Source of the DNA: an uncultured Opitutia bacterium
GTDB lineage: Bacteria > Verrucomicrobiota > Verrucomicrobiia > Opitutales > UBA953
Direction of reading: 5' to 3'
NCBI GenBank assembly: GCA_945957395.1
Contig: CAMFKE010000001.1
Coordinates: 62,001 to 126,000, forward strand
Length of the DNA: 64,000 bases
The notes below the pieces were generated by a model. The model made no database searches, had not been told where the DNA came from, and was given only the letters and a program-made list of their open reading frames with translations. How positions within the stretch are numbered: the first letter of the stretch is position 1; each line of letters begins with the position of its first letter. Shown piece by piece: positions 29,289 to 44,865 of the stretch. The position numbers and the translations under genes are program-made.

Positions 29289-31604
29289 TCACCCGCGCAG
29301 CGCGGCGTGGAGTTCTGCGTCGGAGCGCACCGTGATCGGCGCCGAGTACTCGGGCGCGAGACAGGCGGCGTAATCCTTTTCAGCGAAGCGGCGGCAGTGC
29401 AGCACGACGGTGGCGGTCTGCCCCGGGGCGCGCACGAGGCGACCCAGCGCCTGGTTCACTTTGCGCATGCCGGGCAGCAGGCTTGTGAGGCGGAACGCCT
29501 CCGATTCGTTCAGGTCGCGCCGCGCGCGGGCGAATCGCGCCTTCTGGACCGGGTTGCTCACATCGGGGATGGACGGGCCGACGACCATGGCGTGCGACAC
29601 GCGGCCTCCGAGATGGTCCACGCCCTCGGCCATGCCGCCGCCCAGAACGAGGAACATCGCATGCGCTCCGAGCAGGCTTTGTTCGAGGAAATCGGCGTGT
29701 TCCTCCGGCGTGCCGCCGGGTTTTTGCACCGCCACCCGGAAGCCTGCGTCGAGCGCGCCGACATACGCCGCCACGGTCTCGGCGTAGCGGTAGGAGGGGA
29801 AGAACACGGCGATCGGCGAGCCGGCGGCGGCGCCCAGCTCGATCACCGTGCGCGCGGTGGTGGCGTGGTGTTTGTCGCGGGCCCGAAAACGCGTGTCTGG
29901 CCGCGTATCCACAATCACCTTATACGCTCCGGCGCGCCAGGGCGCCTGCGCCGCCACGAACGCATGGTCGCTTGCGCCCAGCCCGCAGGCCTTGGCGAAA
30001 TCGGCGACCGGGGCGAGCGTGGCGGACATGAGGAGCGCTCCTCCCCCGGCACGCAGCGTCTCCCCCACCTCGGCCGAAGCGTCCAGCCGGTCGAGCCGCA
30101 GCGTGCCGCGCCCGGGCGAGTGCGGCAGCGCGTCGTCGTCTCCGGCCTCGGAGAGCCTGTCGGCCCATCGCAGCGCGTCGGACAGGGCGTCCGCGTCGGT
30201 GTCCGAGAGCTCGGACCACGGAAGGCGTGAGGCGCGCAGGGTGTCGCGCAGGTGCGGGGCGATGTCGTGCAGCGCGTTTTGGGAAACCGGGGAGAGTCGT
30301 TCGCACTCCGGGAGGTCCTCAAGAAGGCGCAGCCACTCGAGCAGGGCGCCGCGCGCGGCGCGGTCGGTGCGAGCGGTCTCGAACGCCGACAGGAGGCGCT
30401 CGGCGGTCGCCGCATCGGTGGCGAGGGAGCGCGCGGCGGCCGCGCGGTCGGGCAGGTTGTGCGCCTCGTCCACCACGAGCAGTGTGCGCGCCAGGTCGAA
30501 GCCGTCGGCGTCGGCGAGAAGGCCGGAGTGGTCGGGGGAGAAGATGTGGTTGTAGTCGGCCACGATGAGCTCGGCGGGGGGCAGCAGCGAGCGGGTGATC
30601 TCCCAAGGCGGCACGCCGAGGCGTTCGCCGGCGGCGCGCACGCGCTCGAGCGAGGCGTGGCCCTCGTCGAAGAGCGAGCGCGGGTCGAAGGCCGCGCCGA
30701 GCCAGTTGGCGCGCCATTGCGCCGGGTCGTCGGGGATGCCGGGCATCGCGTGGTCGTCGCGCCGGCGCAGGTCGAGCGCGCGCAGCGCGCCCGGTGCGAC
30801 CATGCGCTCCAGTTCGCGGAAGACCTGGATGCGCCCGGAGTTTTTGCCCGTCAGATAAAGGATTCTGTCGCAAAGGCCGTCGCGCAGGCGCGCCAGCGCG
30901 AAGTCGAGGGCGAGGGCGGTCTTGCCGAACCCGGTGGGGGCCTCCAGCAGCGTGACTTTGGCGCGCGCGGCGGCGAGGTCGAGGTTGTGGCGGGCGTCCT
31001 CCCAGCCGTCGCGGGGGGTGTCGAAGGCGCGGCGGAAGCGCATGCCGGAAAGCCGGACGCGCGAGGAGCGCCGGTCTTCGGCGAAGCGCTCCACGGCCTC
31101 GAGCCCGAGTGCGAGCAGGTCGTCGGGGGATTCGTCCGGCTTCACCGCGAGCGTGACGCCGGAGGCGATGTCGGCGTAAAGCACCTCGCCGGCGATGCGG
31201 CGTCCGGAGAAAGCCGGGTCGGCCGCGAGCGCCGCGCAGTACACGGCGAGTTGCACGAAGTGCTCCCGGTACTTCTTGCGGAAAAATTCGGCCGGCGCGT
31301 CGATCTCGCCGGTCACCGTCTTCACCTCGCGTACGACGATGCGCTCGCCCTCGTCGCGCCACTGGTCGATGCGCCCCTCGATCTCCACCGTCCATGCGCC
31401 CTGCTGCCGCACGAGCCGCACGGGCGTCTCGAACTTCCAGGCCGAGGATTCGGCGGCGGCGCGCTCGGCGAGCCGGTTGTGCCATTCCACGCCGGCGGCG
31501 GTGCGCCAGGCGGAGGAGGACGAGCCGACCCGGCCCGGGAGGCCGAACACGGCGAACTCGCGGGCGCCGAGCGTGACGAGTCGTCTGTCGGTGGCGAGGC
31601 GCAT
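29289..31604 (-). CDS. DinG/XPD-like DNA helicase fused to an N-terminal PD-(D/E)XK nuclease domain
   Basis: 771 residues from the ATG at 31604. The first 125 residues carry a RecB/Cas4-like nuclease pattern: GRID (Asp80), then REVKT (Glu93, Lys95), then QLAVY at 118-122. The helicase follows: Walker A APTGFGKT at 222-229, DEAH box VVDEAH (379-382), MSATLAPVADF, and the motif VI segment VNQALGRLVRAPGQ. XPD/DinG enzymes usually have four Fe-S cysteines between Walker A and the DEAH box. Here only Cys245 is in that span, so the cluster is absent. A role in DNA repair or recombination is likely. It is convergent with the ABC operon, with no gap. Confidence 0.82.
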   Translation of the reverse strand: MRLATDRRLVTLGAREFAVFGLPGRVGSSSSAWRTAAGVEWHNRLAERAAAESSAWKFETPVRLVRQQGAWTVEIEGRIDQWRDEGERIVVREVKTVTGEIDAPAEFFRKKYREHFVQLAVYCAALAADPAFSGRRIAGEVLYADIASGVTLAVKPDESPDDLLALGLEAVERFAEDRRSSRVRLSGMRFRRAFDTPRDGWEDARHNLDLAAARAKVTLLEAPTGFGKTALALDFALARLRDGLCDRILYLTGKNSGRIQVFRELERMVAPGALRALDLRRRDDHAMPGIPDDPAQWRANWLGAAFDPRSLFDEGHASLERVRAAGERLGVPPWEITRSLLPPAELIVADYNHIFSPDHSGLLADADGFDLARTLLVVDEAHNLPDRAAAARSLATDAATAERLLSAFETARTDRAARGALLEWLRLLEDLPECERLSPVSQNALHDIAPHLRDTLRASRLPWSELSDTDADALSDALRWADRLSEAGDDDALPHSPGRGTLRLDRLDASAEVGETLRAGGGALLMSATLAPVADFAKACGLGASDHAFVAAQAPWRAGAYKVIVDTRPDTRFRARDKHHATTARTVIELGAAAGSPIAVFFPSYRYAETVAAYVGALDAGFRVAVQKPGGTPEEHADFLEQSLLGAHAMFLVLGGGMAEGVDHLGGRVSHAMVVGPSIPDVSNPVQKARFARARRDLNESEAFRLTSLLPGMRKVNQALGRLVRAPGQTATVVLHCRRFAEKDYAACLAPEYSAPITVRSDAELHAALRG

Positions 31605-31690
31605 GGGCGCGCAAGCAGAAGGGAGAATGGCGAAGGGTGAAGGGTTAAATGGAGTCGGGGCGCATTCGGCGCGCAGCGGGCATGGGTGCG

Positions 31691-31719
31691 AAAAAAAAAG
31701 CCCCACGCGAGCGTGGGGC
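31691..31719 (-). terminator. Rho-independent terminator after SGNH hydrolase gene
   Basis: An 8-bp GC stem (31700-31707 with 31712-31719) followed on the minus strand by nine T (31699-31691). It lies 38 bases past the stop at 31757. Confidence 0.85.
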
Positions 31720-31756
31720 CTGGGAAGGTCGCCGGTCGGGTCCGGCTTGATGCGGC

Positions 31757-32497
31757 TCAGAGGAACTTGGCGAGGACCGGGTTCAGTTCCGCGGCCCAAA
31801 CCTCATATCCCGCGGAGTTCAGGTGCAGGCCGTCGTAAAAGAGCTCCTTCTTGGGGGCGCCCGAAGGGTCGGTCACGCGGGGCGTCATATCCAGATAGCT
31901 GATACCCTTGGCCGCCTTGTATTTGGCGGCGAGCAGGGCGTTCACCTTGCCGGGCAGCGCGATTTGCTCGGGCGTGTCCTTGCCCTTGAAGTTGCGCGGG
32001 AGCACGCCCACGACGATCACCTGCGACTTCGGCGACTTCTCCTTGAGCAGCGACACGATCGCGTCGACGCCGGACACCGTGTCTTCGGCCGAGGCCGCCG
32101 GCGTGGATTTATACACCATGAAGTTGTTGGTGCCGGCGAGCAGCACGAAGACCTTGGGGGCAAGTCCGTCGAGGGCGCCGTTGCGCAGGCGCCACAGGAT
32201 GTTTTCGGTCCTGTCGCTGCTGACGCCCAGGTTCAGCGCGTTGTGGCGCGCGTAGTGTTTGTTCCAAGTGGCGAGGCCGTAGGCGCCGCGCTTGAGTTCC
32301 GGGTTCCCTCCCCACTGCTGGGTGATGGAGTCGCCGATGAAGACGAGCTTGGCATCCTGCGTCTCCTTCACGGCTTTGCAGATGGCGGCATGTCGGTCCA
32401 GGTTGCGGCCCGGGCACGGCTTTATGCTGAGGTTTTCCCCGAAGGCGAATTGAGCGGCGAAGAGTGCGGCAAGGGCGACGAGGGGGATTTTGGGCAT
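31757..32497 (-). CDS. Secreted SGNH/GDSL hydrolase (carbohydrate esterase-like)
   Basis: 246 residues with a signal peptide (hydrophobic to AQFAFG, about residue 20) from the ATG at 32497. SGNH blocks: FIGDSITQQW (nucleophile Ser), LNLGVSSDRTENILWRL (block II Gly), LLAGTNN (block III Asn) and DGLHLNSAGY (catalytic Asp and His). This set resembles PAF-acetylhydrolase-like esterases, which in glycan loci remove O-acetyl groups from sugars. It is one of four paralogues in 5 kb. It lies divergent from another SGNH gene, with 115 bases between the starts. The exact substrate is unknown; sialate or other O-acetyl esters fit the neighbourhood. Confidence 0.88.
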   Translation of the reverse strand: MPKIPLVALAALFAAQFAFGENLSIKPCPGRNLDRHAAICKAVKETQDAKLVFIGDSITQQWGGNPELKRGAYGLATWNKHYARHNALNLGVSSDRTENILWRLRNGALDGLAPKVFVLLAGTNNFMVYKSTPAASAEDTVSGVDAIVSLLKEKSPKSQVIVVGVLPRNFKGKDTPEQIALPGKVNALLAAKYKAAKGISYLDMTPRVTDPSGAPKKELFYDGLHLNSAGYEVWAAELNPVLAKFL

Positions 32498-32612
32498 GGC
32501 GACATGACGGCGTTTTCGGGGGTTTTTTCCAGACAAATGGGGGGCGTCGATGGAAGTCGTTTCTTGTCATGAAACGGCGCGCGAGCAGGTTCGTGTCCGA
32601 CACCTTCCAGCC

Positions 32613-33368
32613 ATGACGCCCCTGTTTCGCACCGTTCTTTTTTCGCTGACACCCCTGGTCGCCCTCGCCGGCGCAAAACCCGAGCCCACGCCCGCGGAGC
32701 CGGTGGAGCAGGCGCGCGAGGTGTACGGGAAGGTGAGCTGGACGGCGCGGCACGAGGCTATCCTGGCGAGGAACAAGCGGGTGAAGCCGGAGTTGGTGTT
32801 CATCGGTGATTCCATCACGCATTTCTGGGCCGGTGAACCGGCCGCTTACAAGGTCGCCAGTCCCGCGGCGTGGAAGGTCGCGACGGGCGGGCGTGAGGCG
32901 ACGAACCTCGGGTTCGGTTTCGATTACATCGAAAACGCCCGCTGGCGCGTCGCGCATGGCGAGCTCGACGGCATATCGCCGAAGGTCGTGGTGGTGCTGC
33001 TGGGCACCAACAATCTCGGGCACAAGAAGGACACGCCCGAGGCGGCCGCCGCGACGATGTCGGCGCTGTTGAAGGACATTCAGGCGAAACAGCCGAAGGC
33101 GAAAATCCTGCTGCTCGGCGTGTATCCGCGACGCGAGCCGAACCTGGCCGAGCCCATCCGCCGGTTGAACAAGCTCTATGCGGACATGGCCGGCGGCGCG
33201 GTGAAGTTCGTCGACCCGGGCGCCGCCGTGCTGGCGGACAAAGCCGAGGGCGGTGCGGCGCCGCGAGCCAACCCGAAGTATCTGCGCGATGTGGTGCATC
33301 CCAATGCGGCCGGATACGCGCAGGTGGCGCCTCTCATTGCGGAGGAGATTGAAAAGCTCCTGCGCTGA
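32613..33368 (+). CDS. Secreted SGNH/GDSL hydrolase
   Basis: 251 residues from the ATG at 32613, with a signal peptide ending near LVALAGA. Blocks: FIGDSITHFWAG (Ser), TNLGFGFDYIENARWRV (Gly), LLGTNNLGHKKDTP (Asn) and RDVVHPNAAGY. Block V has D-x-x-H (DVVH), so the triad is complete. A central insert AEGGAAPRANPKYLRD is longer than in the paralogues. It is transcribed rightward, against the rest of the locus, and meets the AGE epimerase gene at a bidirectional terminator. It is the most divergent of the four SGNH copies here. Confidence 0.86.
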   Translation: MTPLFRTVLFSLTPLVALAGAKPEPTPAEPVEQAREVYGKVSWTARHEAILARNKRVKPELVFIGDSITHFWAGEPAAYKVASPAAWKVATGGREATNLGFGFDYIENARWRVAHGELDGISPKVVVVLLGTNNLGHKKDTPEAAAATMSALLKDIQAKQPKAKILLLGVYPRREPNLAEPIRRLNKLYADMAGGAVKFVDPGAAVLADKAEGGAAPRANPKYLRDVVHPNAAGYAQVAPLIAEEIEKLLR

Positions 33369-33442: not shown

Positions 33443-34603
33443 TCAGATGAGCGTGTCGAGGCAGGCGCCGAAGGTGTGGTAGTCGACCTTGCCGCCGGGG
33501 ACGATGAGGGTGCCGTCGGTGGGCTTGTGGTCGCGCGTGAGCACGCGGCGCCACACGCCGCCGAGCGCCTTGATGACGAACTTGTCCTGCGAGTAGTTCC
33601 ACAGCTTGGTCGCCCATTCGGCGGACTCGGCGCAGCCGGTGAGCTTGGCGACGAGCTGCGCGGCGGCGAAGCTCTCGGCCTGCACCCAGAAGTGCTTCTC
33701 GTCGTCGAAGAGCGAGCGGTCCTGCTTGAGGCCGTAGAAGAGGCCGCCGTGTTCGGTGTCCCAGCCGGCGCGGCAGGAGGAGACGAGCAGGTCGCGGGCG
33801 ACGGGCAGCATCCAGGCCTCCTTGGCCGGGGTGAGGGAGAGCTGGCAGAGCAGCTTGGCCCACTCGGTCTGGTGGCCGACCTGGAAGCCCCAGGGGCGGT
33901 AGAGGTCGCGCGGGTTGTCCTTGTGGAACTCGAAGTCCACTCGCCAGTCGGCGTCGAAGTGTTCCCAGATCCAGCCGCCGGCCTGAGAGGCGAGCTCGAG
34001 GCAGAACTTGCGCGCGGTGCGCGCGGCGCGGTCGAGCGAGTGGCGGTCGCCGGTGGCGTGCCAGCAGGCGAGGAGGGCCTCGACGGTGTGCATGTTGCAG
34101 TTCTGACCGCGGTAGGAGGAGAACTTGCCGTCGGCGTCGAGGTCGTCGGCGAGCAGGCCGGTGGCGTCCTCGAAGCGGTCGAGGCCGCGCAGGGCGAGCT
34201 CGACGGAGTCGGCGCCGGTGACGCCGGCGCGGAAGGCCCAAGAGGAGGAGAGCACGAGGAAGGCGGCGCCGTAGGTCTTTTGAGACTTGTCGTCGGCCTT
34301 GTCCGGATACGCGACCCAGGTCATGGATCCGTCGGAGTGCAGGTGGGTCTTCTCGACGAACTCCCAGGCGGCGCGGGCGAATCCGCGGTACTTGGCGCCG
34401 CCCTTGCGCGCGTAGGCGCGGGCGAAGTTCACGGCGTAGCGGGTGGAGCTGACGAGGTGGCGGGTGCCGTCGCAGGTGACCTTGCCGTTGTCGAGAATGG
34501 TGTTGGGCAGACCGCGGGCGCCGGCCTTGGCGGCCAGGGGCTCGTAGTAGCCGAGGATGTCGAAGGCGTGGCTTTCGACGGCGGTGTCGGAGGGTATGGA
34601 CAT
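33443..34603 (-). CDS. AGE-family epimerase/isomerase (N-acylglucosamine 2-epimerase or mannose isomerase type)
   Basis: 386 residues, an (alpha/alpha)6-barrel enzyme. Family features: TRHLVSSTRYAVNFARAY, GQNCNMHTVEALLACWHAT (central NMH), WEHFDADWRVDF, GFQVGHQTEWAKLL (catalytic His) and VDYHTFGACLDTL (second catalytic His at the C-terminus). Members either interconvert ManNAc and GlcNAc or isomerise mannose and fructose. Next to three sialidases, ManNAc to GlcNAc would complete sialic acid breakdown. The alternative is free mannose released from a glycan feeding the PfkB kinase. No signal peptide, so cytoplasmic. It is the last gene of the minus-strand locus. Confidence 0.87.
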   Translation of the reverse strand: MSIPSDTAVESHAFDILGYYEPLAAKAGARGLPNTILDNGKVTCDGTRHLVSSTRYAVNFARAYARKGGAKYRGFARAAWEFVEKTHLHSDGSMTWVAYPDKADDKSQKTYGAAFLVLSSSWAFRAGVTGADSVELALRGLDRFEDATGLLADDLDADGKFSSYRGQNCNMHTVEALLACWHATGDRHSLDRAARTARKFCLELASQAGGWIWEHFDADWRVDFEFHKDNPRDLYRPWGFQVGHQTEWAKLLCQLSLTPAKEAWMLPVARDLLVSSCRAGWDTEHGGLFYGLKQDRSLFDDEKHFWVQAESFAAAQLVAKLTGCAESAEWATKLWNYSQDKFVIKALGGVWRRVLTRDHKPTDGTLIVPGGKVDYHTFGACLDTLI

Positions 34604-34637
34604 GTGAGTAGGGATGAGAAAGCGGACCGAAACGGGC

Positions 34638-35438
34638 TTATTTTTTCATGACCTGGGCGAGCGCATCGGCCCAGAGGGCGTAACCCTTTTCGGACGGGTG
34701 GAGGCGGTCCGGCATGAGTTCGCGCGGCAGCGTGCCGTCGGGCTCAAGGAACTTTTCGCCGATATCGAGGAAGGTGGTGTCTTTCGCGCCGGCGAAGCGC
34801 TTTTTGAGCAAGGCGTTGAGCTCGGCGATCTTCGCGCGGTGGGCGTCCTTGGCGGAGGCGCCGCGGGGGAACACGCCCATGACGACGAGCTTGGCGGAAG
34901 GGGCTTTGGAGCGGATGACGCCGACGAGGTTTTGGATGCCTTCGTCGATTTCGGCCGGGGAGCAGGCGCGGTCGTAGGCGCCGCCGCCGACCAGGTTGTT
35001 GGTGCCGATGTTGAGCACCACCCACTTGGGCTTGAGGCCGTCCATCTCGCCCTGTTGCAGGCGCCAGAGGACATTCTGCACGCGGTCGGCGCCGAAGCCG
35101 AGGTTGAGCACGGGTTTGTCGCCATGGAGTTTTTTCCAGGAGACGGGGCCGCGGTTGCCGTATTTCCCGGTGTCGGGGAAGCCGGCCCACATGTGCGTGA
35201 TGGAGTCGCCGATCATGACGACCTCCGGGTTGAGCTTGTCCTTGCCGGCGAGGATAGCCTCGTGGCGCTTCATCCAGTCGTAGTCGCGGCGAGGCTTCTG
35301 GGGCTTGGCGTCGAGCGCGGGATTGGCGGCGGCGGGGGCGTTGTCCGCGGCTTTTTCCTTTTCGGCGAAGGCGGCGGAGGGGGCGGAGATGGCGAGGGCC
35401 AGGGCGGCCAGCGAGGCGATTGCGGTGCGGTGGAACAT
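34638..35438 (-). CDS. Secreted SGNH/GDSL hydrolase
   Basis: 266 residues from the ATG at 35438. Signal peptide to about residue 25 (SAPSAAFA). Blocks: MIGDSITHMWAG (Ser), LNLGFGADRVQNVLWRL (Gly), LNIGTNNLVGGG (Asn) and PDRLHPSEKGY (Asp/His). It is closely similar to the next gene (GRHEAVLK versus KRHEAILA; both have DRACSPAEI and MGVFPRGA), so it is a tandem duplicate. It probably deacetylates an O-acetylated sugar in the periplasm or outside the cell. The gap of 34 bases to the downstream epimerase start suggests co-transcription. Confidence 0.88.
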   Translation of the reverse strand: MFHRTAIASLAALALAISAPSAAFAEKEKAADNAPAAANPALDAKPQKPRRDYDWMKRHEAILAGKDKLNPEVVMIGDSITHMWAGFPDTGKYGNRGPVSWKKLHGDKPVLNLGFGADRVQNVLWRLQQGEMDGLKPKWVVLNIGTNNLVGGGAYDRACSPAEIDEGIQNLVGVIRSKAPSAKLVVMGVFPRGASAKDAHRAKIAELNALLKKRFAGAKDTTFLDIGEKFLEPDGTLPRELMPDRLHPSEKGYALWADALAQVMKK

Positions 35439-35454
35439 GGTGATTGGGGGGGGC

Positions 35455-36171
35455 TTACCGGCGAAGGATCGGGGCGAGGGCTTCGGCCCAGACGGCATAG
35501 CCGGCTTCGGCGGGATGCAGGTAGTCCGGCATGAGGTCGGCGCGCAGGGTGCCGTCGGCCGAGAGGAAGTTTTGGCCGATGTCGAGGAAGGTGAGGCGGG
35601 GAAATGACGCGGCGCGAGCCGCGAGCCGCGCGTTCACCTCGGTGATGGAGGCCCTGAACGGATCGGTGGGTTCGGCGCCGCGAGGGAACACGCCCATGAG
35701 CACGATCGAGGCGGCGGGGACCTTTTCGCGGATGCGGGCGACGAGGTGGAAAATCCCTTCGGCGATTTCGGCGGGCGAGCAGGCGCGGTCGAATCCGGGT
35801 TCGGAGACGAGGTTGTTCGTGCCGATGAGGAGTACGACGACTCGGGGGGCGAGGCCGTCGAGCTGGCCGTGCTCAAGGCGCCAGAGCACATTCTGGGTGC
35901 GGTCGGCGCTGAAGCCCAGGTTCAGCACGCTCGTGTCGGCGAAGAGGGCGCGCCAGGAGCGGGGGCCTTTTTCGCCGTAGGCGCCGGCCTCGGGGGTGCC
36001 GGACCAGAAGTGAGTGATCGAGTCGCCGATGAGCACGACCGAGGGCGCCGTGGCGGCCTTGGCCTTCAGGACGGCCTCGTGCCGCCCCTGCCAGTCGTAG
36101 TCCTCGCGGGGGAGCTGCGGCTTGGCTTGCAGCGCCGGGTTGGCGGACGGGCAGGGTGCGGTCGCGAGCAT
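35455..36171 (-). CDS. SGNH/GDSL hydrolase without an obvious signal peptide
   Basis: 238 residues from the ATG at 36171. Blocks: LIGDSITHFWSG (Ser), LNLGFSADRTQNVLWRL (Gly), LLIGTNNLV (Asn) and PDYLHPAEAGY (Asp/His). Its N-terminus MLATAPCPSANPALQAKPQL lacks a basic-hydrophobic signal, unlike the three paralogues. A cytoplasmic esterase acting on imported acetylated sugar is possible, or an upstream non-ATG start could hide a signal; the PfkB stop is only 10 bases away, which leaves little room. The gap to the following SGNH gene is 16 bases. Confidence 0.84.
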   Translation of the reverse strand: MLATAPCPSANPALQAKPQLPREDYDWQGRHEAVLKAKAATAPSVVLIGDSITHFWSGTPEAGAYGEKGPRSWRALFADTSVLNLGFSADRTQNVLWRLEHGQLDGLAPRVVVLLIGTNNLVSEPGFDRACSPAEIAEGIFHLVARIREKVPAASIVLMGVFPRGAEPTDPFRASITEVNARLAARAASFPRLTFLDIGQNFLSADGTLRADLMPDYLHPAEAGYAVWAEALAPILRR

Positions 36172-36181
36172 GGGGCCGGTG

Positions 36182-37162
36182 TTATTTGGCGGCGCCTTGG
36201 AGCGCCTTGACTTCCGCGAGGGTGGGCAGCGCGGCCATGGCGCCGGGCTTGGTGACGGTGAGGGCGCCGCAGGCGGCGGCGAAGGCGAGCCACTCGCGGG
36301 TCTTCGCCGGGTCGGCGACGATGGCGCGCAGGGCGGCCTTGGCGTCGCCGCAGGCGTCGTTGATGAGCGGATACAGGAGGCCGCCGCAGAGCGAGTCGCC
36401 GGCGCCGGTGGTGTCCACGGCGGAGACCTTCGGGGTGGGGGCGGAGACGGTGCCGGAGGCGGTGACGCAGCGCAGGGCGCCGGGGCCGTCGGAGAAGACG
36501 ACGGCGAGGGCGCCGGCGTCGAGGCAGCGCTTGGCGTAGGCTTCGGGGGAGCCGGCGAGGACGGTGGCCTCGTCGAGTCCGGACTTCACGAGGTCGGCGA
36601 GGGCGAGGGATTCCCAAATGGGGGCGGGGTCGACGGTGTCCTTGGCCCAGAGCATGGGGCGCAGGTTGGGGTCCACCGACACGAGGGCGCCGCGCTTGCG
36701 GGCCTCGCGCAGGGCGTCGAGGGTGACGGAGCGTGCGGGCTCGGCGACGAGGGTGTTCGAGCAGGTGTGGATGGCGTCGCCCGCGCGGATGCCGGCGAGG
36801 TCGAGCTGGCGCAACTCGACCGCGAGGTCGGCGGTGTTGTTGCGGAAGAAGCGGAAGGAGCGGTCGCCGCAGGGGGCGAGCTGCACGATGGCGAGCGCGG
36901 TGGGCTCGGGGCGGGAGACGAGGCCGGAGGTGTCCACGCCCATGGTCTTGAGCGCGTCGGAGAGGAGGGCGCCCCAGGGGTCGGTGGAGATGCCGCCGAG
37001 GTGGCGGGCCTTGCCGCCGAGGCGCGCGACCTGTGCGGCGACATTGGCGGGTGCGCCGCCGGGCACGAGGGTGAGGCGGGGCAGGGTGAAGGGGCCGGCG
37101 GTTTCGGTGCCGGCGGGCACGGCGTCGACGAGGATTTCGCCGAGGGAGTGGAGGGTGGGCAT
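36182..37162 (-). CDS. PfkB-family carbohydrate kinase
   Basis: 326 residues from the ATG at 37162. Ribokinase-fold landmarks: SLGEILVDAVP at the start, PGGAPANVAAQVARLGGKA (substrate end), GGISTDPWG, RFFRNNTADLAV and the anion-hole motif VDTTGAGDSLCGGLLY with the catalytic Asp. The closest general match is the fructokinase group. An insert DACGDAKAALRAIV near residue 280 is seen before the last helices. In this locus it may phosphorylate the sugar produced by the epimerase: fructose if that enzyme is a mannose isomerase, or an amino sugar if it is a GlcNAc epimerase. It is 110 bases from the last sialidase. Confidence 0.88.
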   Translation of the reverse strand: MPTLHSLGEILVDAVPAGTETAGPFTLPRLTLVPGGAPANVAAQVARLGGKARHLGGISTDPWGALLSDALKTMGVDTSGLVSRPEPTALAIVQLAPCGDRSFRFFRNNTADLAVELRQLDLAGIRAGDAIHTCSNTLVAEPARSVTLDALREARKRGALVSVDPNLRPMLWAKDTVDPAPIWESLALADLVKSGLDEATVLAGSPEAYAKRCLDAGALAVVFSDGPGALRCVTASGTVSAPTPKVSAVDTTGAGDSLCGGLLYPLINDACGDAKAALRAIVADPAKTREWLAFAAACGALTVTKPGAMAALPTLAEVKALQGAAK

Positions 37163-37272
37163 AGGAAAGTGAGAAGTGGGAAGTGAGATGTAAGAAGTGT
37201 GAATGATGCGCGAGTTGCGAGGCGTGAGGAACGAGGCTGGCAACAATCTCGCCCCTCGGATCTCGAGTCCCG

Positions 37273-38430
37273 TTACCTCAACTCGGAAGGTTTCACGGTG
37301 CGGAAGACGATGCGCTCGTAGTCTCCGGCTTCATACGCGATGGCGATGGTGCCGTCGGGTAGCACGGCGAGGTGGCTGTAGGCGGAGGGGCCGGGTTCGA
37401 TGACGAGCGACCTGGTCCAGGTTTGGCCTTCGTCCTCGGAGCCGCGCAGGGTGAGGTTGCGGCGCTCTTCGCGGGAGGCGGGGTTGGAGAAGAGGAGGAG
37501 GCCGGGGTGGCCGTCGGCGGGCAGGGTGTGGCGCACGAGCGAGCCCATGCAGCGGGGTTCGGGCAGCGCGGGGTCCCAGGTGGTCTCGCCCCAGGTCTCG
37601 CCGGCGTCCTTGCTGATGGCGACGGCGCGGGCGCGCTTGGCGGAGCCGTGGTTGCGCATGTTCAGGAGGAGGTCGCCGTTGGCGAGTTCGACGATCTCGC
37701 ACTCGTTGGTGTGGCGGGCGGCGTAGGTCTTGGAGCGGGTCCAGGTTTTGCCGGAGTCGTCGGAGTAGAGGGCGTGGGCGTAGTAGACGGGGCGGGTGGT
37801 GGGCTTGCCGTCCTTGTCGGGGGCGCCCTGCTCGAACTCGCTGTGGTTGGCGGGTGTGATGTAGCGGCCCTTGTGCGGCTCGCGCTGTTTCACGAAACCG
37901 GCGCCGGGGCCCGGGGCGATCCAGGCCCAGCCCGGGAGTTTCGCCTGTTCGGTGATGTTGCGGGGGGCGGACCAGGTGAGGCCGTCGTCGTCGCTGTGGA
38001 CGATGTAGACCTTGCGCGAGTCGTCGCCGAAGCCGGGTTTGAGGCGGGATTCCCACAGTTTGTTCCAGACCAGGAGCACGGAGATGCGCCCGGTTTGGCG
38101 GTCCACGACGGGGCAGGCGTTGCCGAGGGTGAACTCGTCGAGGTCGGCGACCACCCGGATTTCGCTCCAGGTCCTGCCGCCGTCTTCGGAGCGGCGCACC
38201 ACCTGGTCGATGTCGCCGTTGTCGTGCGGGCTGTTCTTTCGCCTTTCGGCGAAGAGCAGCAGGGCGCCCTTGGGCGTGACGGCGAGCGTGGGGATGCGGT
38301 AGGTGTGTTCCGGCGCCCGGCGCGCGCCCACATAGGCGTCGAGCTTGATGGGGGCGTCCTCCCGGCTTTCCGGGGCGGTGCAGCCGGCGAGCGGCAGCAG
38401 GGCGAGGACGGCGAGCGGGAGGAGCTTCAT
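37273..38430 (-). CDS. Sialidase (GH33-type), predicted lipoprotein
   Basis: 385 residues. [17 protein letters not shown] is a lipoprotein signal, so the enzyme should be held on the cell envelope. GH33 marks: YRIPTLAV (F/YRIP Arg), the Asp-rich segment [10 protein letters not shown], five Asp-boxes ([40 protein letters not shown]), [11 protein letters not shown] (Glu of the Tyr/Glu pair), and [11 protein letters not shown] with YEAGDY at the end. It cleaves terminal sialic acids from host or mucin glycans. It is third and most divergent of three tandem copies, 15 bases downstream of the second. Confidence 0.92.
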
Positions 38431-38445
38431 CGGGCGTGAGGCGGC

Positions 38446-39621
38446 TTACTTGGTCCGGCCGGGCTCCTGCCGGAGCTCGGAGGGCTTCACGGTGCGGAAG
38501 GCGATGCGCTTGTAGTCGTCGGTCTCGTAGGCGACGGCGATGGTGCCGTCCTTGAGCACGGCGAGGTGGCTGTAGGCGGCCTGGGCGGGCTGGATGACGA
38601 GGGACTTCGACCAGGTTTTGCCGTCGTCGGCGGAGCTGCGCAGGGTGAGGTTTTCGCGTTTGCCGGTGGAGGCGGGGTTGCAGAAGAGGATGAGGCCCGG
38701 GTTGCCGCCGGAGGGCCAGGAGTGGCGCATGATGGAGCCCATGCACTGGGACTCGGGCAGCGACATGTCCCAGGTGGTCTCGCCCCAGGAGTCGCCGGCG
38801 TCCTTGCTGACGGCGACGGCGCGGCGGCGTTTGCCTGAGCCGTGGTTGCGCATGTTCAGCATGAGGTCGCCGTTGGAGAGTTCGACGATCTCGCACTCGT
38901 TGGTGTGCTTGGCGGCGAAGGATTTGGAGGATTTCCAAGTCTTGCCGGAGTCGTCGGAGTAGAGGGCGTGGGCGTAGTAGACCGTGCGGGTGGTGGGCTT
39001 GCCGTCCTTGTCGGGTTTGCCCTCCTCGAACTCGCTGTGGTTGACGGGGATGATGTAGCGGCCGGCGTTGGGGGGGAGCTTCTTGACGAAGCCGGCGCCG
39101 GGGCCGGTGGCCATCCAGGCCCAGTTGGGCTGCTTCACCTGCTCGGAGATGTTCTGCGGCTTGCTCCAGGTCTTTCCGTCGTTGTCGCTGTAGGTGGTGT
39201 AGACGAGGCGGGTGTCGTCGCCGTATCCGGGCTTGGTGGAGTACTCGTGGACGCGGTTCCAGACGGCCACGACGGTGATGCGGCCGGTCGTGGGGTCGAC
39301 GATGGGGCAGGCGTTGCCGATGGTGTACTTGTCGATGTCGAGCATCACCTTTTCGGCCGACCAGGTCTTGCCGCCGTTTTCGGAGCGCTTCACGACCGTG
39401 TCGATGTCGCCGGAGTCGCCCCAGCCGTTTTTGCGCAGCTCGGCGAAGGCGAGGATGGTGCCCTTCTTGGTGACGCACATCGAGGGGATGCGGTAGGTGT
39501 GCGTCGGGCTCTTGCCGGTGCCGACGAAGAGGTCGGCGTCGCGGGCGGGTTCGGCCGCCTGAGTCGCGGCGAAGGCGGCGAGGGGGAGAAGGCCGAGCAG
39601 GGCGAGGGAGAGGTGCTTCAT
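38446..39621 (-). CDS. Sialidase (GH33-type), secreted
   Basis: 391 residues from the ATG at 39621. Signal peptide to about LAAFAATQA. GH33 motifs: YRIPSMCVTKKG, GDSGDIDTVVKR, Asp-boxes [32 protein letters not shown] and [31 protein letters not shown]. No lipobox, so it is periplasmic or released. Bases 39032-39535 are identical to 40219-40722 in the upstream sialidase, so this block was copied recently. It lies 8 bases after that gene and 15 before the next, in a single transcript. Confidence 0.92.
   Translation of the reverse strand: MKHLSLALLGLLPLAAFAATQAAEPARDADLFVGTGKSPTHTYRIPSMCVTKKGTILAFAELRKNGWGDSGDIDTVVKRSENGGKTWSAEKVMLDIDKYTIGNACPIVDPTTGRITVVAVWNRVHEYSTKPGYGDDTRLVYTTYSDNDGKTWSKPQNISEQVKQPNWAWMATGPGAGFVKKLPPNAGRYIIPVNHSEFEEGKPDKDGKPTTRTVYYAHALYSDDSGKTWKSSKSFAAKHTNECEIVELSNGDLMLNMRNHGSGKRRRAVAVSKDAGDSWGETTWDMSLPESQCMGSIMRHSWPSGGNPGLILFCNPASTGKRENLTLRSSADDGKTWSKSLVIQPAQAAYSHLAVLKDGTIAVAYETDDYKRIAFRTVKPSELRQEPGRTK
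39032..39535 (-). repeat. 504-bp exact copy shared by sialidase genes 2 and 3 (copy 1)
   Basis: Identical base for base to 40219-40722, with a constant offset of 1187 and mismatches immediately at both ends. It covers the N-terminal catalytic half, from the mature N-terminus to PVNHSE, in both proteins. Flanking sequence is clearly diverged. Confidence 0.95.
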
Positions 39622-39629
39622 GGCGTGGC

Positions 39630-40811
39630 TTACTTGGAGGTTTCGCCGGATTGGGGCTTGAGCTCGGAAGGCTTGATGACGCTGAAGACGATGCGCTTGC
39701 AGTTGTCGGCTTCGTAGAGGTGGGCGATGTCGCCGTTGGGCAGCACGGCGAGGTGGCTGTAGGCGGCCTTGCCGGGTTCGATGAGCTTCTGGACGGGCCA
39801 GGTTTTGCCGTCGTCGAAGGAGCCGCGCAGGATCATGTTTTCGCGGCCCTTCTTGGTGGCGGGGTTGGAGAAGAGGAGCATGCCGGGGTTGCCGTTGAGG
39901 GGCCAGGAGTGGCGGATGATGGAGCCCTGGCAGACGGGCTCGGGGAGCTGCTTGTCGTAGGTGGTCTCGCCCCAGGTTTCGCCGCCGTCCTTGGAGATGG
40001 CGACGGCGCGGTCGCGACGGCCGGTGCCCTGGTTGCGCATGTTGAGCATGATGTCGCCGTTGGTCAGTTCGACGGCTTCGCACTCGTTGGTGCCCCTGTC
40101 GGCGAAGGACTTGGAGGCTTTCCAGGTCTTGCCGGAGTCGTCGGAGTAAAGGATGTGCGCGTAGTAGGTCTGGCCCATCTTCACCTTGCCGTCCTTGTCG
40201 GGTTTGCCCGGCTCAAGTTCGCTGTGGTTGACGGGGATGATGTAGCGGCCGGCGTTGGGGGGGAGCTTCTTGACGAAGCCGGCGCCGGGGCCGGTGGCCA
40301 TCCAGGCCCAGTTGGGCTGCTTCACCTGCTCGGAGATGTTCTGCGGCTTGCTCCAGGTCTTTCCGTCGTTGTCGCTGTAGGTGGTGTAGACGAGGCGGGT
40401 GTCGTCGCCGTATCCGGGCTTGGTGGAGTACTCGTGGACGCGGTTCCAGACGGCCACGACGGTGATGCGGCCGGTCGTGGGGTCGACGATGGGGCAGGCG
40501 TTGCCGATGGTGTACTTGTCGATGTCGAGCATCACCTTTTCGGCCGACCAGGTCTTGCCGCCGTTTTCGGAGCGCTTCACGACCGTGTCGATGTCGCCGG
40601 AGTCGCCCCAGCCGTTTTTGCGCAGCTCGGCGAAGGCGAGGATGGTGCCCTTCTTGGTGACGCACATCGAGGGGATGCGGTAGGTGTGCGTCGGGCTCTT
40701 GCCGGTGCCGACGAAGAGGTCGATGGGCTCCTGCGCTTTCGGAGCGGCGAAGGCGACGAGGGGCAGCAGGGCGGCCAGTGCGAAAAGACGGGAGGGGCGG
40801 GAGAGTTTCAT
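39630..40811 (-). CDS. Sialidase (GH33-type), secreted, first of three in tandem
   Basis: 393 residues from the ATG at 40811. Signal peptide MKLSRPSRLFALAALLPLVA with cleavage near AFAAPKAQ. GH33 motifs: YRIPSMCVTKKG, GDSGDIDTVVKR, Asp-boxes [32 protein letters not shown], and a degenerate [31 protein letters not shown]. It is first in the sialidase-kinase-esterase-epimerase series, so the operon promoter should lie in 40812-41221, which it shares divergently with the first PEP-CTERM gene. Its C-terminal half differs from the second copy, unlike the identical N-terminal half. Confidence 0.92.
   Translation of the reverse strand: MKLSRPSRLFALAALLPLVAFAAPKAQEPIDLFVGTGKSPTHTYRIPSMCVTKKGTILAFAELRKNGWGDSGDIDTVVKRSENGGKTWSAEKVMLDIDKYTIGNACPIVDPTTGRITVVAVWNRVHEYSTKPGYGDDTRLVYTTYSDNDGKTWSKPQNISEQVKQPNWAWMATGPGAGFVKKLPPNAGRYIIPVNHSELEPGKPDKDGKVKMGQTYYAHILYSDDSGKTWKASKSFADRGTNECEAVELTNGDIMLNMRNQGTGRRDRAVAISKDGGETWGETTYDKQLPEPVCQGSIIRHSWPLNGNPGMLLFSNPATKKGRENMILRGSFDDGKTWPVQKLIEPGKAAYSHLAVLPNGDIAHLYEADNCKRIVFSVIKPSELKPQSGETSK
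40219..40722 (-). repeat. 504-bp exact copy shared by sialidase genes 2 and 3 (copy 2)
   Basis: Partner of 39032-39535. A perfect match over this length, with diverged ends on both sides, points to gene conversion rather than simple duplication. Confidence 0.95.
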
Positions 40812-41221: not shown

Positions 41222-42544
41222 ATGAAAAAAACTCTTCCCACGCTTACCCTTTCGTTGGCCGTTCTAATGGCCGCCACCACTTCTTTCGCCGCGACCTATG
41301 TGGGGCCCGGTGACGGAACCGCGAACACCGGCTACATCGGAGCGCAAACCCAGATGAAACCCGGAGATGCTGGCGTGGAGGGCGACGCGCTGCTGACCTT
41401 CAATGTGACCAGCGGGTACTTCGGAAACGGAAATGATCAGACGATCCTCTTTAGTAATGCGAATTTCCAGATCAACGAGCTGACCATCAACAACGGGTAC
41501 AGCAATAACCAGACCTGGTTCACCGGGACGGCGCACGGGTCCGGCAACATCACGGTGACCGGCGCCTTGGGGCAGGATTTCGTGTTTACCGGCAACATGC
41601 AGAATTACTCGGGCAATATCAGCATTTCCTCCTCCGGCGGGAGCAGTCCGGCTTTGGGCTCCTCCAATAATAGCGTGCTGCAGTTCGGGGGCACCGACTC
41701 CGGCGGCACCGTCGCGCAGGGGACGGTGACCACCGACGGTACCGGTCGCTGGATCAACAATGTGTCGGGTTCCGGCGATTTGTCCGTCAACAACCTGGTC
41801 TTCAACTACGGCACGGGCTCCGGTTATGACTATGTGAAGGTCACCAATGACATCTCGGTGCGCAAGGGGCTTCACTTCCAAGGGGATGCGCATGTCCTCG
41901 CCAGTGGAACCATCGCCGGGGACGGTTGGGTGAACAAGGTCGGCGCCGGCAGCCTGACGCTTACGGGGGCCAACAGCTACACGGGAGGCACCATCGTGGC
42001 GCTGGGCGAGCTGATCGCCGCGCACGCTTCGGCTCTGGGCACCGGTACGGTGGCGGTGAACGGCGGCATTCTGTCCACTTCGGTGGCCAATGTGAACACG
42101 GGCGCTTTCTCCCTCGCCGGGGGCACCCTGGTGATCAACGGCGCTTCCGCCGGCACCATCACCCTTTCGCCCGGCCAGGACTTCAACTTCACCGCCGGCC
42201 TGTGGCAGATCGATCTGGCCTCGGGTCTCGACCAGATCATCGGCTCCGGCGCCGGCTCCGACTTCACCATCTCCGGCGGCGTGATCGACCTGGGCGGCGG
42301 CGCCATCGATTACACGCAGACCTACGACCTCATCGCGGGCTTCGAGAACATCAACATCAGCGGGGTGGGCATCACCGGGTACGACACCGCCAACTGGCAG
42401 GCGTCCATCAACAACAACGGCGAACTGAGCTTCACCGCCGTGCCCGAGCCGGCCACCTACGGCCTGCTCGGCGCCGGAGCGCTGGCCGCCGCCTCGATGG
42501 TGCGTCGTCGCCGTCGCAAGGCCGCCGCGAAGGCCGCCGAGTAA
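41222..42544 (+). CDS. PEP-CTERM surface protein A with autotransporter-type beta-strand repeat
   Basis: 440 residues. Signal peptide MKKTLPTLTLSLAVLMAATT to about SFAA. The N-terminal 220 residues are unique within the array, Gly/Asn/Ser/Thr-rich and probably beta-helical. A repeat of autotransporter-associated type follows, GAGSLTLTGANSYTGGTIV, then the shared C-terminal module (residues about 300-440). It ends with VPEPATYGLLGAGALAAASM and an Arg/Lys-rich tail, the PEP-CTERM sorting signal recognised by an exosortase. It is therefore exported and probably surface-held. No exosortase is in the window. The start ATG is at 41222. Confidence 0.88.
   Translation: MKKTLPTLTLSLAVLMAATTSFAATYVGPGDGTANTGYIGAQTQMKPGDAGVEGDALLTFNVTSGYFGNGNDQTILFSNANFQINELTINNGYSNNQTWFTGTAHGSGNITVTGALGQDFVFTGNMQNYSGNISISSSGGSSPALGSSNNSVLQFGGTDSGGTVAQGTVTTDGTGRWINNVSGSGDLSVNNLVFNYGTGSGYDYVKVTNDISVRKGLHFQGDAHVLASGTIAGDGWVNKVGAGSLTLTGANSYTGGTIVALGELIAAHASALGTGTVAVNGGILSTSVANVNTGAFSLAGGTLVINGASAGTITLSPGQDFNFTAGLWQIDLASGLDQIIGSGAGSDFTISGGVIDLGGGAIDYTQTYDLIAGFENINISGVGITGYDTANWQASINNNGELSFTAVPEPATYGLLGAGALAAASMVRRRRRKAAAKAAE
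42167..42471 (+). repeat. 305-bp exact copy shared by PEP-CTERM genes A and B (copy 1)
   Basis: Identical to 44482-44786 (offset 2315). It encodes the shared C-terminal module up to the start of the transmembrane part of the PEP-CTERM signal. Confidence 0.92.
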
Positions 42545-43071: not shown

Positions 43072-44865
43072 ATGAAAACCCACCCTTCCAAAGCACTTCT
43101 TGCGGTGGCCGTCAGTCTGTCGGTCTTCGCCTCCTCTCATGCCGTCGTCATTTCCAAGGATTCTGCGGGCACCGACCTTGCGGCCGGTTCCTCGTGGGCC
43201 GGGGGCAATGCGCCGACATCTTCCGATGTGGCGACCTGGACGGGAAGCTCGTTGGGCGGTTCGCTCACGATGGACTCCGATTTGTCCTGGGGCGGCATCG
43301 ATATCCAGGGGGCCACGGCCACCGTGGTCATTTCGGGCACCGGTACGCTGACGCTGGGCGCCTCCGGCATTAATGTCGCCGCCGCCGGGCAGGATCTGAC
43401 GCTGGGCAATTCCATTGTCGTTGGCGCATCGCAGACCTGGCATGTGGAGGAGGGGCGCAAGCTGCTTATCAACACCACGGGCAGCACGCTTACTTTCGGT
43501 GAAGGCACCACCACCACGCTGACCGGCTCCGGCACAGTCGAGCTTGGGAACAACCGGGAGCTCGCAGGCAGCGGCGATCTGGTCATCGATGGCGCCACGC
43601 TTGTGAACAATCTGCAGGGCGGCACCCAGTCCCGCACCGGGAATACGACCCTGAACTCGGGTATCATAATGCTGCAGAGCAATGTGGACATATTCGGCAC
43701 CGGGCAGCTCAACCTCAACGGCGGCGCCATCGGCTCCGGTAACAGTTCCTCGCGCACCATCGCCAACGCGGTGACAATCGGCGGCGATATCCGCATCGGC
43801 GGCGACGGACTGAGCTCCGGCGGCATGACCTTCTCGGGTACGGTCGATCTCATGGGGGGCGTTCGCACCATCGAAACCAATGTCACGACCTTCTTCACCG
43901 GCGTGATTTCCAACGGCGGAATCACCAAGACCGGCTCCGGCGTGCTGCGACTGGCGGGTGACAACACTTTCACGGGCGCCACGACCGTCCTTCAGGGGGC
44001 GCTGGCCATCGGCAACAACGCGCTCGCGCACAGCAGCTCGGTAACTCTGGCTGCCGGCACGACGTTGTATATCGGTGCCAACGGCACGACGACCATCAAC
44101 AACCTCTCCGGCGATGCCGGCTCCGAGATCCATACCGCCTATAACATCGACACGACCGGCGCTCGCACGCTGGTGGTGAATCAGACGGTGGACGGCGTGT
44201 TCGCCGGCACCATCAAGCAGGGTAACTCCGGTCGCACGCTCAGCCTGGTGAAGGACGGCTCGGGCACCCTCACGCTCAGCGGCACCAACACCTACTCCGG
44301 CGGCACGACCATCAACAACGGCACGCTCGTGGCCGCCGCCGCGGCGGCGCTGGGCACCGGCGCCGTGCAGGCCAATGGAGGCACGCTGGCCACCTCGGTG
44401 GCGAATGTGAACACCGGCGCGTTCAACCTCGCCGGGGGCACGCTGGTGCTCAACGGCGCCGGCGCAGGCACCATCACCCTGTCGCCCGGCCAGGACTTCA
44501 ACTTCACCGCCGGCCTGTGGCAGATCGATCTGGCCTCGGGTCTCGACCAGATCATCGGCTCCGGCGCCGGCTCCGACTTCACCATCTCCGGCGGCGTGAT
44601 CGACCTGGGCGGCGGCGCCATCGATTACACGCAGACCTACGACCTCATCGCGGGCTTCGAGAACATCAACATCAGCGGGGTGGGCATCACCGGGTACGAC
44701 ACCGCCAACTGGCAGGCGTCCATCAACAACAACGGCGAACTGAGCTTCACCGCCGTGCCCGAGCCGGCCACCTACGGCCTGCTCGGTGCAGGGGCTCTGG
44801 CCGCCGCCGCGATGGTGCGTCGACGCCGTCGCAAGGCGTCCGACGCGTCCCCTGTGACCGAGTAG
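43072..44865 (+). CDS. PEP-CTERM surface protein B with beta-strand repeats
   Basis: 597 residues. Signal peptide MKTHPSKALLAVAVSLSVFA to about SSHA. The N-terminal module, shared with genes D and E, begins with VVISKDSAGTDLAAGSSWAG and runs through DVATWTGSSLGG and GGIDIQGATATVVISG. The middle has repeat units such as TKTGSGVLRLAGDNTFTGAT and VKDGSGTLTLSGTNTYSGGT, the autotransporter-associated strand pattern that predicts a right-handed beta-helix. The C-terminal module is that of A. The sorting signal is VPEPATYGLLGAGALAAAAM plus RRRRRK. Probably exosortase-processed and surface-displayed. Confidence 0.88.
   Translation: MKTHPSKALLAVAVSLSVFASSHAVVISKDSAGTDLAAGSSWAGGNAPTSSDVATWTGSSLGGSLTMDSDLSWGGIDIQGATATVVISGTGTLTLGASGINVAAAGQDLTLGNSIVVGASQTWHVEEGRKLLINTTGSTLTFGEGTTTTLTGSGTVELGNNRELAGSGDLVIDGATLVNNLQGGTQSRTGNTTLNSGIIMLQSNVDIFGTGQLNLNGGAIGSGNSSSRTIANAVTIGGDIRIGGDGLSSGGMTFSGTVDLMGGVRTIETNVTTFFTGVISNGGITKTGSGVLRLAGDNTFTGATTVLQGALAIGNNALAHSSSVTLAAGTTLYIGANGTTTINNLSGDAGSEIHTAYNIDTTGARTLVVNQTVDGVFAGTIKQGNSGRTLSLVKDGSGTLTLSGTNTYSGGTTINNGTLVAAAAAALGTGAVQANGGTLATSVANVNTGAFNLAGGTLVLNGAGAGTITLSPGQDFNFTAGLWQIDLASGLDQIIGSGAGSDFTISGGVIDLGGGAIDYTQTYDLIAGFENINISGVGITGYDTANWQASINNNGELSFTAVPEPATYGLLGAGALAAAAMVRRRRRKASDASPVTE
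44482..44786 (+). repeat. 305-bp exact copy shared by PEP-CTERM genes A and B (copy 2)
   Basis: Partner of 42167-42471. Confidence 0.92.

Follow-up and report, generated by a model that had tools for sequence, protein, structure and literature searches.

Which sugar is consumed by a gene cluster that combines three sialidases with a sugar kinase and an AGE-family enzyme? The usual product of Neu5Ac is ManNAc, not mannose, and a deaminated sialic acid, Kdn, is also to be considered. The cluster is a seven-gene run on the - strand, at positions 33443-40811 of the 64-kb stretch of DNA analyzed here (the window), and comprises three GH33 sialidase genes, a PfkB gene, two SGNH hydrolase genes and an AGE-family gene. 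The favored reading, to which we give a probability of about two in three, is a sialoglycan-foraging locus, arranged like an operon, that includes a mannose-catabolic module of its own, Kdn being the likeliest mannose source.

Layout of the gene run

In the order of transcription, the run consists of sialidase A (39630-40811; MKLSRPSRLFALAALLPLVAFA), sialidase B (38446-39621), sialidase C (37273-38430), a PfkB-family sugar kinase (36182-37246, with an ATG start likelier at 37165), SGNH hydrolase 2 (35455-36171), SGNH hydrolase 1 (34638-35438, in an ORF opening at 35498) and the AGE-family enzyme (33443-34603). The gaps between them are ~8, 15, 26-107, 10, 16, and 34 bp, respectively, which confirms the initial annotation of seven same-strand genes with mostly short gaps (~8-107 bp). 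Computed family assignments of the seven genes have Pfam E-values of 1e-27 to 1e-68, and their coding frames are backed by the codon-position GC pattern. No promoter-like site was found within the run, and terminator-like sites in it are no commoner than in shuffled sequence; we infer that the run would be co-transcribed as one operon. The two further SGNH genes reported just beyond the run are both present. SGNH hydrolase 4 (31757-32536; PF13472, 3e-26) is on the - strand, but SGNH hydrolase 3 (32550-33368; PF13472, 5e-24) is on the + strand and therefore cannot share the transcript of the run.

Reading of the sequences indicates a signal peptide or a lipobox at the start of sialidases A-C and SGNH hydrolases 1, 3, and 4: sialidases A and B and SGNH hydrolase 1 have a signal peptide, and sialidase C has a lipobox (LAGC) and is a probable lipoprotein. 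No signal peptide was seen in the ORFs of the kinase, the AGE-family enzyme, which is predicted to be cytoplasmic, and SGNH hydrolase 2, the last differing in this from its three SGNH neighbors. The run contains neither a NanA lyase nor any glycosidase other than the sialidases, and the 64-kb window contains no Rfam element. Just upstream of the run, two genes on the opposite strand (41222-42544 and 43072-44865) encode PEP-CTERM proteins with autotransporter-associated (PATR) repeats, which would suit a Verrucomicrobiota-like organism. An ORF at 29289-31799 joins an N-terminal PD-(D/E)XK nuclease match to Rad3/DinG-type helicase domains.

Sialidases and SGNH hydrolases

All three sialidases match BNR_2 (6e-31 for A, 7e-34 for B, and 6.5e-37 for C), and a PDB search with sialidase A gave GH33 exo-sialidases as the top matches (E ~1e-47). 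In the computed alignment of sialidase A with NanI (chain 8u5o), the Arg triad, the Asp acid/base, the Glu/Tyr pair, and the Asp boxes all coincide: the first Arg lies in YRIP, the Glu in NECE and the Tyr in AYSHL, and the acid/base Asp and the second and third Arg are aligned as well. We take these residues to have the corresponding catalytic roles. Sialidases B and C keep YRIP, GDID, NECE/NECEI, NMRN, the Arg before NLTLR/NMILR, and AYSHL. The window sialidases thus have the same catalytic set as GH33 exo-alpha-sialidases (NanI-like, Bacteroidales); their membership of GH33 is supported, and hydrolysis of sialosides is predicted. Desialylation outside the cell, as proposed initially, agrees with this full catalytic set and with the export signals on the sialidases and on one esterase of the run.

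Unlike NanI-like enzymes, the window sialidases form three tandem copies. Judged by their amino-acid identities (80% between A and B, 61 and 66% between C and these two), they are tandem duplicates, not chance neighbors. A stretch of 504 nt is identical in sialidases A and B (39032-39535 = 40219-40722), and codon windows flanking it drop to ~76-84% identity. This is most simply explained by a recent gene conversion event, but the stretch may otherwise be an assembly artefact.

The two SGNH hydrolases of the run match PF13472 (1.9e-28 for hydrolase 1 and 3e-27 for the PAF-acetylhydrolase-like hydrolase 2) and are 61% identical to each other. The best PDB match of hydrolase 1 is PAF acetylhydrolase 1b (1e-27), and the SGNH match to a sialate O-acetylesterase (6njc) has 29 bits only.

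The mannose-isomerase-type enzyme and its kinase partner

Several comparisons bear on the subtype of the AGE-family enzyme. In NCBIfam, it scores 152.8 bits as D-mannose isomerase against 37.8 as N-acyl-D-glucosamine 2-epimerase; the equivalog cut-off of the former is 600 bits, so that the score speaks for subtype, not for orthology. In the PDB, it matches 3gt5 (Xylella) with 268 bits and 5x32, the D-mannose isomerase of Marinomonas mediterranea (PMC7762179), with 261 bits, against 26 bits for the AGE epimerase 1fp3. In the tree, it stands among mannose isomerases, and canonical AGEs, including that of its own genome, are set apart with full support. Furthermore, it keeps 70 of 85 positions that are near-invariant in 37 mannose-isomerase rows, as does its sister in another genome (G392), and many of the 70 differ in canonical AGEs. 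Assignment as a ManNAc/GlcNAc 2-epimerase was rejected on the two scores and the tree placement. The protein groups with the D-mannose-isomerase subtype, and interconversion of mannose and fructose is its predicted activity. Like the Marinomonas and Xylella enzymes, to which it is linked by 39% identity and a recurrent PfkB partner, it would act on mannose; it differs from them in belonging to a long-branch clade with the G392 enzyme, both being sialidase-linked. With this identity to the characterized enzyme and this branch length, its substrate could have shifted.

The kinase matches PF00294 (5.6e-44). Its best NCBIfam family is fructokinase (180 bits, which is below the cut-off of 450, against 143 for IolC), and its best PDB match is the fructokinase 3ljs (174 bits). 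By best match among PfkB subfamilies, it is fructokinase-like. The initial annotation had assigned epimerase and kinase to ManNAc, the product of Neu5Ac; this does not agree with the isomerase type of the one and the fructokinase-like character of the other, and mannose, given there only as an example of a different sugar, is the better fit.

Pairs of this kind occur elsewhere. An alignment-based scan of named genomes, which found no match when the window isomerase was the sole query, gave 80 loci with a related isomerase, almost all of them in Proteobacteria, plus one in an Acidobacteriota MAG. In 50 of the 80, a PfkB gene lies within 250 bp of the isomerase gene, with very few exceptions on its strand; the flanks retrieved for the 80 loci contain neither a sialidase nor NanA. 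For example, a Xanthomonas locus (L105) has the pair together with a sugar MFS transporter and a LacI regulator. An SGNH pair ~8 kb from that isomerase was set aside as a parallel, being located beyond metH and acyl-CoA dehydrogenase genes. In the window, unlike in other isomerase-PfkB loci, two SGNH genes (hydrolases 1 and 2) separate the isomerase gene from PfkB. Because of the isomerase subtype, the fructokinase-like kinase, and the adjacency in 50 of 80 loci, the pair is read as a route from mannose to fructose-6-phosphate via fructose, and it looks like a portable module.

Sialate genes elsewhere in the genome and the source of mannose

The rest of a sialate pathway is found in the same genome (2.79 Mb, 14 contigs, 96% complete). 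By computed location, contig C7 carries a nan operon with a NanM-like kelch protein, a NanM-MFS fusion, NanA, a sialidase, and an SGNH hydrolase. The lyase is the only NanA-type enzyme of the genome and matches canonical N-acetylneuraminate lyases, which are also its best solved relatives (239 bits). In the fusion (L015:6942-9446), directly upstream of NanA, one ORF joins NanM-like kelch and MFS parts that are separate pieces in relatives. Contig C11 carries a canonical AGE epimerase (457 bits to 8bry, 352.7 to the AGE profile, and 224 to 1fp3), and contig C8 carries NagB, which scores above its cut-off and shares a cluster (L139:2045-8440) with genes for a PIG-L deacetylase, a nucleotidyltransferase, and an APH-type kinase. 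Of the genes proposed initially for a genome-wide search, NanA and NagB were found, and the candidate transporter is of the MFS type; NagA gave no match with TIGR00221, and the C8 PIG-L protein may be its substitute. The alternative of a split pathway, raised in the initial annotation, holds in that NanA, the candidate transporter, the true AGE epimerase, and NagB are all outside the window. In the Bacteroides-type nan pathway (NanA, AGE epimerase, and hexokinase), the first two have their counterparts on C7 and C11, not in the window, whose AGE-family protein is of the other subtype.

The genome holds ten BNR_2 matches. A further tandem pair of GH33 sialidases is on C11 (L017:8846-13143); the two share 77% identity and have a BNR_assoc_N domain. 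On C10, a GH20 hexosaminidase-like gene adjoins a BNR protein, with a GH33-like sialidase on the other strand (L018:5551-10833). No convincing GlcNAc ROK kinase was found in the genome, the best ROK matches resembling polyphosphate glucokinase. Two near-identical ROK matches on C3 (357095-357523 and 362544-362972; 56.7 and 56.6 bits) are ~5.4 kb apart, and the second is part of a polyphosphate-glucokinase-like protein (L140:12221-12982). Within the order, 43 of 273 genomes have the NanA-type lyase, and NanA adjoining a sialidase recurs in several members of the bacterial family. The window locus supplements the ordinary Neu5Ac route of this family.

As for the origin of mannose, Kdn is preferred because a sialate lyase makes mannose from it and not from Neu5Ac. 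Cleavage of Kdn to mannose is documented for human NPL (PMC13220900), Kdn degradation in Haemophilus influenzae involves NanA (PMC7845648), and sialidases acting on Kdn are found in Akkermansia and Sphingobacterium, the latter also with a Kdn-specific aldolase (PMC10017367). We infer the substrates and the following route. Outside the cytoplasm, the three paralogous sialidases would free sialic acids, perhaps Kdn along with Neu5Ac, and SGNH esterases would strip O-acyl groups. The C7 transporter, probably, and the C7 lyase would import Kdn and split it, yielding mannose and pyruvate. Within the cytoplasm, D-mannose would be isomerized to D-fructose by the AGE-family protein, the PfkB kinase would turn the fructose into fructose-6-phosphate, and ManNAc derived from Neu5Ac would be handled by the canonical AGE (C11) and NagB (C8). 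Sphingobacterium likewise has GH33 and a NanA-type lyase in one genome, with mannose expected; unlike the window, where Kdn specificity is putative, no linked mannose isomerase-fructokinase pair is mentioned for it (PMC10017367). A literature search for a sialidase together with mannose isomerase found no report. The nearest solved relatives of sialidase A are ordinary Neu5Ac enzymes, which counts against Kdn, as does the match of the sole NanA-type lyase to canonical N-acetylneuraminate lyases. Taken on its own, the link from Kdn to mannose is plausible but tentative, and a locus fully dedicated to Kdn, in which GH33 Kdnases, the shared NanA, and the linked isomerase and fructokinase lead into glycolysis, is likewise a tentative proposal.

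As the chief alternative, mannose might come from mannose-containing glycans, such as N-glycan cores, bared by desialylation, removal of the cap being coupled to use of the underlying sugar. Isomerase-PfkB pairs without sialidases in other bacteria fit this, as do the Xanthomonas pair, whose transporter and regulator form a stand-alone hexose-utilization pattern, and the GH20 hexosaminidase gene beside a sialidase on C10; yet a search of the genome for mannosidases, confined to family GH92, found no such alpha-mannosidase, and the sialidases are the only glycosidases of the run, which leaves this origin somewhat unlikely. A Bacteroides-type Neu5Ac pathway, with the AGE protein as ManNAc 2-epimerase and PfkB as hexosamine kinase, was the main proposal initially. 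It is very improbable given the subtype assigned by NCBIfam, PDB, tree, and conserved positions, and given the canonical AGE on C11, whose relatives adjoin nan genes in other members of the family, although the sialidase linkage here and in G392 and the lack of a convincing GlcNAc ROK kinase would suit it.

It could also be that a horizontally gained mannose module came to lie beside duplicated sialidases by chance, with no common substrate. A search at E 1e-40 found the isomerase in none of the order's 272 other genomes, and the closest relative of the window sialidases (G245, ~71% identity) is without the isomerase-kinase module. Against chance stand the tight same-strand packing, the SGNH genes inside the module, and the G392 isomerase, the closest in the phylum (51% identity, sister with full tree support), where only four of 387 sampled genomes have a close relative of the window isomerase: a GH33 sialidase gene lies directly beside it on the same strand, although this is one instance only, from a contig of 3 kb. 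Since the G392 sialidase is only ~35% identical to sialidase A, it is probable that each pairing came together on its own. A sialidase neighbor would arise by chance in ~0.6% for this single case, an assumption-laden estimate with ~ten sialidases per ~3500 genes, ten being borrowed from the BNR_2 count of the present genome. Chance neighborhood is unlikely.

Kdn is a second core sialic acid, and its use by bacteria is known from few enzymes in the sources cited above. If the foraging locus does draw its mannose from Kdn, the sialidase-linked isomerase clade of the window and G392 would mark a Kdn pathway, and the combination of GH33, D-mannose isomerase, and fructokinase would allow a direct search for Kdn consumers. 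For an AGE-family gene beside sialidases, ManNAc epimerase should not be the default call.
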